NCBI GenBank assembly: GCA_945881905.1
Contig: CAMCVV010000004.1
Coordinates: 1 to 64,000 of the forward strand
DNA from: Paenibacillus alvei
Lineage (GTDB): Bacteria > Bacillota > Bacilli > Paenibacillales > NBRC-103111
Direction of reading: 5' to 3'
DNA length: 64,000 bases
Positions 8,264 to 37,129 of this stretch are shown here, in pieces (the stretch's first letter is position 1; each line of letters opens with the position of its first letter). Below the pieces are notes generated by a model. The model searched no databases. It worked only from the letters and a program-made list of their open reading frames with translations, and had not been told where the DNA came from. A program made the position numbers and the translations under genes.

Positions 8264-8326
8264 TTTAAAAAAGTATATAAAATATTTTTTTTATTTTTCT
8301 ATATGAGGTGAAGCATGTGAATAAGA

Positions 8327-8416
8327 TTATACACAGAACGCAAGCTTTAAGTAGAAGCTTTTTTTGCATGTATCCACAAGCTATCCACATGTTATACACA
8401 TGGTCTTGTGGATAAC
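8327..8416. promoter_or_regulatory. Array of five DnaA boxes upstream of sda
   Basis: Five sites match the DnaA box TTATNCACA with at most one mismatch: 8327-8335 TTATACACA, 8370-8378 GTATCCACA, 8381-8389 CTATCCACA, 8392-8400 TTATACACA, and 8408-8416 TGTGGATAA (reverse, perfect). The middle three start exactly 11 bp apart, so they lie on one face of the helix. The array ends just upstream of a TTGTTC/TATAAT-like promoter (8424-8455) and 70 bp before sda. In B. subtilis, DnaA controls sda through such sites. Confidence 0.8.
8342..8365 (+). terminator. Weak hairpin followed by a T run inside the DnaA-box region
   Basis: AAGCTT at 8342-8347 and 8355-8360 can pair and is followed by TTTTT. It may be a backup terminator for transcripts from upstream that insulates the sda promoter. 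Confidence 0.35.
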
Positions 8417-8485
8417 AGAACGCTTGTTCTAAATTGGAATACATGTTAATATAATAAATATTTCACATATTTAGGGGGTATTCGG

Positions 8486-8638
8486 ATGACATTGATCAAA
8501 GACAATGAGTTAATTGAATCCTATTTAATGGCTTTAGACTTACAGTTAGAAGCTGATTTTTTGGATTTATTAAGAACTGAAATTCAACGACGCAAAATCC
8601 GACTTCATACGGAAGGTTTATTGAATTCTTCCTACTAA
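8486..8638 (+). CDS. sda: Sporulation histidine kinase inhibitor Sda
   Basis: A 50-aa protein that binds the dimerisation domain of the sporulation kinases (KinA type) and blocks the phosphorelay when replication is disturbed or has just begun. The sequence has the family core LIKDNELIESYLMAL followed by DFLDLLRTEIQRR, closely parallel to Bacillus Sda (a SDELLIESY pattern then DFIxLLxxEIKRR). ATG 8486 follows TTAGGGGG with about 7 nt spacing. The upstream DnaA-box array supports the identification. Its last 21 bp overlap a convergent minus-strand open frame. Confidence 0.92.
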   Translation: MTLIKDNELIESYLMALDLQLEADFLDLLRTEIQRRKIRLHTEGLLNSSY

Positions 8639-36346: not shown

Positions 36347-37129
36347 CTATTGCGCAATGATGTGCTCAATTGCTTCAGCTACGTTCGCTACGATATGTCG
36401 AGCGAATGTCTTCACATCGGGATGTGAATGACGCATCGCATAACTATGTGGTGTTACTTCGAACATGGATATATCATTGAAAGAATCCCCGATACAAGCA
36501 ACTTCATCTACGGTAATATTCAGAATATCAAGCATATATAATAAAGCAGACCCTTTCGAAATGCCTTTGGGCATAATATCTAAGCAGTCAATATCAGAGA
36601 TGAATTGAGTTAATTGATCCCCATAATGCAATTCGAGGTTACGTTTGATCGTAAGTAGCTCTTGGATATCCCCAAAGTAGGACAGTTTGCAAACAGGTAA
36701 TTCATGTTCTATGGCTTCTTCTGCATGGTGTAGAATTCGAAAAGGTTCAAACATTCGAGCTTGTATGGCATCTGATGCGTTCGTTAATTGACTTATATAA
36801 TTGGCTTCTCCTGAACAAATTAACCGAACAATAGTAGGAGATGATGTCATCGTATACGCTTGTCTGGCTAGTGATGGTTCGAAATAAGTAGACTGTAACA
36901 GCTGTCCATCAGATGAATGAATAAATGCACCATTTTGCGAAATACATATACAATTCTGATCGATCTGTGTGATGATTTTATTCATTTCACTCCGCATTCT
37001 ACCAGAAGCAAGCGCGAAAGCTATACCCTGTGTTCTCGAGAGATGAAGTGCTTCGAATTCTCGAGTCGATACTTCTTTGTTTGCATCAAGTAAAGTCCCG
37101 TCTAGATCGCTGACGATTAATTTGATCAA
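36347..37129 (-). CDS. HAD-superfamily Cof-type phosphatase
   Basis: HAD IIB phosphatase of 260 aa with VSDLDGTLLDAN near residues 5-16, LASGRM near 40, KGSALLYMLD near 190, and GDSFNDISMF near 212. Substrate unknown; related proteins dephosphorylate sugar phosphates or flavin intermediates. The frame opens at 37144 inside the Shine-Dalgarno GGAGGAC; TTG 37129 is the likely start. A perfect 9-bp hairpin (37198-37206/37220-37228) lies upstream in its leader. Confidence 0.87.
   Translation of the reverse strand: MIKLIVSDLDGTLLDANKEVSTREFEALHLSRTQGIAFALASGRMRSEMNKIITQIDQNCICISQNGAFIHSSDGQLLQSTYFEPSLARQAYTMTSSPTIVRLICSGEANYISQLTNASDAIQARMFEPFRILHHAEEAIEHELPVCKLSYFGDIQELLTIKRNLELHYGDQLTQFISDIDCLDIMPKGISKGSALLYMLDILNITVDEVACIGDSFNDISMFEVTPHSYAMRHSHPDVKTFARHIVANVAEAIEHIIAQ

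Follow-up and report, generated by a model that had tools for sequence, protein, structure and literature searches.

The sda Gene of a Paenibacillus alvei Assembly Lies behind a DnaA-Box Array and a Candidate LexA Operator Spaced as in Bacillaceae

Introduction

The sda promoter and the Sda checkpoint of Bacillus subtilis are reportedly the subject of Burkholder 2001 and of Smith and Grossman 2015. The available text of PMC4447404 describes DnaA as a direct activator of B. subtilis sda and gives the binding of ATP-DnaA to the sda promoter as about 50-fold greater than that of ADP-DnaA at 55 nM. According to the accessible parts of two further papers, sda is also repressed by LexA, so that DNA damage raises Sda (PMC11925247; PMC5445613), and passages of another state that Sda blocks KinA and KinB and hence the activation of Spo0A (PMC5295017). 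A 2012 survey, in the portion available, places sda in most Bacillales (PMC3533761). The placement of a single promoter under both DnaA and the SOS repressor LexA is likewise described in part of PMC8203912 for E. coli uvrB and recN, but these genes are unrelated to sda and differ in promoter layout, and their output is DNA repair rather than a developmental brake.

Here we analyze the sda locus in a stretch of 64,000 nucleotides (positions 1 to 64,000 of contig CAMCVV010000004.1, assembly GCA_945881905.1), which we refer to as the window. In the titles and abstracts of the openly licensed literature we found no description of a conserved geometry of the sda array or of array-less sda paralogues, a result that counts as weak evidence.

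Results

An sda gene in a small genome

8486 to 8638, plus strand: sda, a 50-codon open reading frame for the 50-residue sporulation kinase inhibitor Sda (PF08970, 45.5 bits)

This open reading frame is Sda. Its Pfam score stands against a cut-off of 22.6 bits and the match spans positions 1 to 41 of 45. The sole PDB entries that it matches are solved structures of Sda (3d36, 1pv0, and 3fyr; E about 4e-5). Both results agree with the first-pass annotation, which had recognized a 50-codon sda gene here from the letters. An NCBIfam search with the same open reading frame gave no match. Leu21 and Phe25, hydrophobic residues of the helix hairpin which we take to be kinase-contact residues, are invariant in all eight aligned rows (alignment columns L19 and F23, the fragment beginning at residue 3). 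The gene is flanked by an IscA/HesB-type gene (PF01521) and by a pyridine-nucleotide oxidoreductase gene on the opposite strand.

The assembly comprises 2.40 Mb in 87 contigs and is 99.6% complete, and it is the single representative of its genus among the genomes compared. A PF08970 search of the assembly found one Sda copy, the one at 8486 to 8638, and a search of the genome contigs with the window's own Sda as query found no relative. Domain searches revealed DnaA, LexA, Spo0A (Spo0A_C), and SpoIVA, and the presence of the last two rules out a loss of sporulation from this small genome. In a search with the Pfam Spo0B domain (PF14682) no match was found in the genome, and thus the downstream relay may differ; a divergent membrane Spo0B is reported for Paenibacillus in the available part of PMC12826061. 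As a side observation, spo0A, spoIVA, and sda are carried here in 2.4 Mb, and relatives of the same family mostly have genomes of 4 to 10 Mb.

Six DnaA boxes upstream of sda

Upstream of sda are six DnaA boxes in 100 bp, four of them exact TTATNCACA. For each box we give the filling of the corresponding slot (at most one mismatch unless stated) in 92 arrayed copies of sda from relatives, which were chosen by box score, so that slot filling is partly selected and array-less copies and shuffled sequences serve as controls, and in 80 named Bacillaceae loci. The 92 copies are related sequences, 83 of them with a distinct last 110 bp, and the Bacillaceae records include B. mojavensis, B. spizizenii, B. 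tequilensis, Geobacillus, and Metabacillus.

8316 to 8324, minus strand: DnaA box B1, TTATTCACA, exact; slot exact in 83/92 arrayed copies and 80/80 Bacillaceae loci
8327 to 8335, plus strand: DnaA box B2, TTATACACA, exact; slot filled in 79/92 and 73/80
8370 to 8378, plus strand: DnaA box B3, GTATCCACA, one mismatch, 43 bp from B2; slot filled in 58/92 and 71/80
8381 to 8389, plus strand: DnaA box B4, CTATCCACA, one mismatch, 11 bp from B3; slot filled in 57/92 and 32/80, the weakest slot
8392 to 8400, plus strand: DnaA box B5, TTATACACA, exact, 11 bp from B4; slot filled in 60/92 and 79/80
8407 to 8415, minus strand: DnaA box B6, TTATCCACA, exact, inverted and promoter-proximal, 15 bp from B5; slot filled in 86/92 and 79/80

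B2 diverges from B1 with a step of 11 bp, and the boxes at 8370, 8381, and 8392 step by exactly 11 bp, bearing out the 11-bp periodicity of three boxes that the first-pass annotation had pointed out. All five of the boxes it listed are real; B1, just outside its interval, had been overlooked. Its proposal that the boxes lie on one helix face fits B2 to B5, given their 11-bp steps and their gap of 43 bp; B6, inverted and set 15 bp from B5, does not conform to it. DnaA may bind to the array cooperatively.

Could the boxes be a chance cluster or an artefact of composition? The number of boxes with up to one mismatch in the whole window is indeed at the chance level, 90 being seen and 93 expected. 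The sda cluster, however, holds four exact boxes and six with at most one mismatch per 110 bp, whereas the maximum for 110 bp in 100 dinucleotide shuffles of the whole window was two exact boxes (2/100 shuffles) and four with at most one mismatch (1/100), and shuffling the intergenic stretch 1000 times gave at most one and three, respectively. The shuffles rule out a chance cluster, and conservation of position across the order, described below, also refutes it; we hold this explanation to be vanishingly improbable.

The genome as a whole contains 177 exact DnaA boxes. Same-orientation pairs of exact boxes no more than 30 bp apart occur at three further places, and the converging exact pair at 8392 and 8407 is the only such pair in the genome.

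A near-invariant geometry

Measured from B6, the other slots lie at -15, -26, -37, -80, and -91. Where the B3, B4, and B5 slots were filled, the box was at exactly -37, -26, and -15 in 56/58, 55/57, and 57/60 cases, respectively, in the set of 92 arrayed copies, and at zero offset in 71/71, 32/32, and 79/79 cases in the 80 Bacillaceae loci, every one of which has a DnaA-box array preceding sda. For B1 and B2 the offset was either 0 or +1 bp, with few exceptions. The window has all six slots filled at zero offset. Just 9 of the 92 arrayed copies and 19 of the 80 Bacillaceae loci have six slots filled at one mismatch or fewer, and individual boxes, above all B4, are therefore often weak.

A candidate LexA operator over the -35 element

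Adjoining the last box in aligned upstream sequences of relatives is the block CGGAACGCTTGTTCT, for which the window has AGAACGCTTGTTCT with a 12-bp core at 8418 to 8429. This palindrome, the LexA half of the promoter, had been omitted from the first-pass annotation.

8418 to 8429, no strand assigned: candidate LexA/SOS operator, GAACGCTTGTTC, overlapping the -35 element, its start 11 bp downstream of the B6 start
8424 to 8429, plus strand: predicted -35 hexamer TTGTTC, present near B6 in 89/92 arrayed copies
8444 to 8452, plus strand: predicted extended -10 element, TGTTAATAT, after a 17-bp spacer from the -35 element
8473 to 8479, plus strand: Shine-Dalgarno-like AGGGGGT, from direct reading of the sequence

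The pattern GAACN4GTTC was present in 83 of the 92 arrayed copies; 3 of the 55 paralogues without an array had it, as did 2 of 1840 shuffled upstream sequences. It was also found in 79 of the 80 Bacillaceae sda loci. Its start lay 11 or 12 bp from that of B6 in 81/92 arrayed copies and 79/80 Bacillaceae loci. The extended -10 element TGnTAnnAT, in contrast, was present at the -10 distance in 86 of the 89 arrayed copies with TTGTTC and in none of 79 Bacillaceae loci.

Is the palindrome a LexA site? The site at 8418 to 8429 departs from CGAACRNRYGTTYG, which we take to be the full B. subtilis LexA consensus: its inner GCTT misfits at the third inner base and the outer A...T differ, whereas the 4+4 core agrees. 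The genome contains 35 GAACN4GTTC sites, fewer than the 57 for a reversed-pattern control, and so the pattern by itself is not special. Twenty of the 35, picked by eye as the most LexA-like, were inspected and found to lie mostly within open reading frames; among these 20, two are upstream of lexA (PF01726), beside a divergent gene for a LysM protein that is YneA-like by position, and one is between a Y-family polymerase gene (pol IV, PF00817) and an SRAP gene (PF02586). An alternative is that the palindrome is no LexA site and is conserved merely because it holds the -35 hexamer. Consistent with this, TTGTTC is kept where the GAAC half is lost (e.g., L008 and L127) and is more frequent than the palindrome among the arrayed copies (89/92 versus 83/92). 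The GAAC half lies outside the -35 element, however, and yet is retained in those 83 arrayed copies, in 79/80 Bacillaceae loci, and in all four array-less copies of one family (f8, see below), and the same 4+4 palindrome recurs at lexA in this genome. We consider conservation for the -35 element alone very unlikely and treat the palindrome as a candidate LexA operator.

One arrayed copy per genome

Of 117 relatives, 108 had an Sda (PF08970) match and 115 had Spo0A_C; of the nine lacking an Sda match, eight still have Spo0A_C. We read the sda copies of 106 of the 108 genomes, copies per genome being counted among the matches listed and a 19-residue fragment (L095) being excluded. Their upstream sequences form two classes, with 93 arrayed and 54 array-less copies (L063 was grouped as array-less in the counts based on 92 and 55 copies and is arrayed when 330 bp are considered). 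Among the copies read, exactly one arrayed copy per genome was present in 93 of the 106 genomes. In the other 13, none of the copies read was arrayed; for 10 this is firm, all listed copies having been read, and for three (G048, G055, and G058) further copies fall outside the count. DnaA control of sda is thus not universal. Conservation of the boxes in relatives that keep sda had been set beforehand as the test of the first-pass reading, and it was borne out by these 93 genomes, which have the same spacings, and by the Bacillaceae loci. The array-less copies (e.g., L041, L043, L061, L073, and L075), which many relatives have as additional genes of the Sda family, are sometimes in tandem (L073 and L075).

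The array class is tied to synteny. In 6-kb loci, ndh was near 50 of 63 arrayed copies as compared to 5 of 53 array-less copies, and yumC was near 47 of 63 as compared to 5 of 53. Of the five array-less copies near ndh or yumC, four belong to family f8 and the fifth has an arrayed copy next to it within its own locus (L135).

These results bear on the possibility that the boxes act chiefly to titrate DnaA or hold it in reserve, buffering the initiation of replication, and that their position before sda is secondary. Clusters of DnaA boxes near oriC are said to regulate initiation in B. subtilis (Okumura et al. 2012, as cited in PMC4447404), and the genome has further dense box clusters, as this explanation would have it. 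Titration needs no phase, however, whereas the LexA operator and the -35 element keep a fixed spacing from the array (11 or 12 bp from the start of B6); moreover, the array goes with sda in both lineages although the neighboring genes differ, and the array-less paralogues indicate that it belongs to a single promoter. We judge titration to be quite unlikely.

Loss of one input

In all four genomes of family f8 (G077, G084, G088, and G091; loci L140, L145, L149, and L132), sda is in its usual neighborhood and has the LexA core but no array. Conversely, the exact LexA core is absent from ten arrayed copies, including all five that were read in genus g12. Thus, the two inputs are evidently kept and lost separately. 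Families with one input and the array-less paralogues are natural experiments on which signal the checkpoint needs and on whether the geometry of the boxes, beyond their number, makes DnaA an activator.

Other DnaA-box sites in the genome

That the sda cluster is oriC is ruled out by the position of the gene for the DnaA C-terminal domain, on another contig (C80). The domain reads GRDHTTV, which we take to be a DnaA signature. The spacer after dnaA (L153) has just two DnaA boxes, one of them exact and the other near, and a CTACTACTATTACTA run, presumably a DnaA-trio, and it has the look of a sparse dnaA-dnaN origin half.

A phased array longer than that of sda is present on contig C13 (L034:2129-2280; about 36628-36780), with at least nine DnaA-box-like 9-mers, four of them exact, which all share a strand and an 11-bp register. 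ArsR/ArsI-like genes flank it on one side and a carbonic anhydrase gene on the other. None of the 58 relatives searched had a close match to the carbonic anhydrase gene; any match at all was found in 7 of 59 genomes, this one included, and the others were weak.

Discussion

We estimate a probability of roughly 0.88 that the window's sda is orthologous to the checkpoint gene sda of B. subtilis, both in what it does and in how its promoter is laid out. Like its B. subtilis counterpart it encodes a protein of the Sda family, and it shares with the 80 Bacillaceae loci, which include the B. subtilis group, both the box spacings of 11/43/11/11/15 and the position of the LexA operator. It differs from the Bacillaceae loci in that its B3 to B5 are nearer to the consensus and in having the extended -10 element. 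It further differs from B. subtilis in its neighborhood (iscA/yumC/ndh as against yqeG, the gene named in the available text of PMC4447404) and in that its relatives have additional, array-less sda paralogues. The same parts are in the same places as in B. subtilis, and the same mechanism is thus the best explanation. We infer on this basis that in this organism, too, DnaA and LexA bind, activate, and repress, and that Sda inhibits the kinases.

In such a mechanism DnaA, probably in its ATP-bound form, would assemble on B1 (inverted), B2 at +11, B3 at +43, B4 at +11, B5 at +11, and B6 (inverted) at +15 and would activate the σA promoter that immediately follows. When bound to GAACGCTTGTTC, LexA would cover the -35 element and repress until RecA triggers its cleavage. 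Sda would then be raised by either replication-active DnaA or the SOS response and would block the sporulation histidine kinases, leaving Spo0A unphosphorylated. The first-pass annotation had stated that DnaA drives sda in B. subtilis, in agreement with PMC4447404 as far as its available text goes, and its interpretation of the locus is supported. Given that activation by DnaA and repression by LexA are published for B. subtilis sda, the window's gene is an ordinary, deeply conserved member of the checkpoint, with its parts in place in a lineage that has received little study. The replication and DNA-damage checkpoint on sporulation thereby reaches beyond Bacillus into another order, even in the base-pair spacing of the promoter. 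What is new is the near-invariant geometry, the restriction of the array to a single copy per genome where array-less paralogues are also present, and the separate loss of the two inputs.

A bolder and tentative proposal, to which we give somewhat less than even odds, is that the LexA operator and the six boxes together make up a single rigid nucleoprotein switch of ancient origin, whose geometry has been retained throughout Bacillales and the window's order, and, jointly, that the array-less Sda paralogues are kinase brakes that no longer answer to replication or SOS control and respond to other signals instead. If so, these bacteria would run several sporulation brakes with different inputs.
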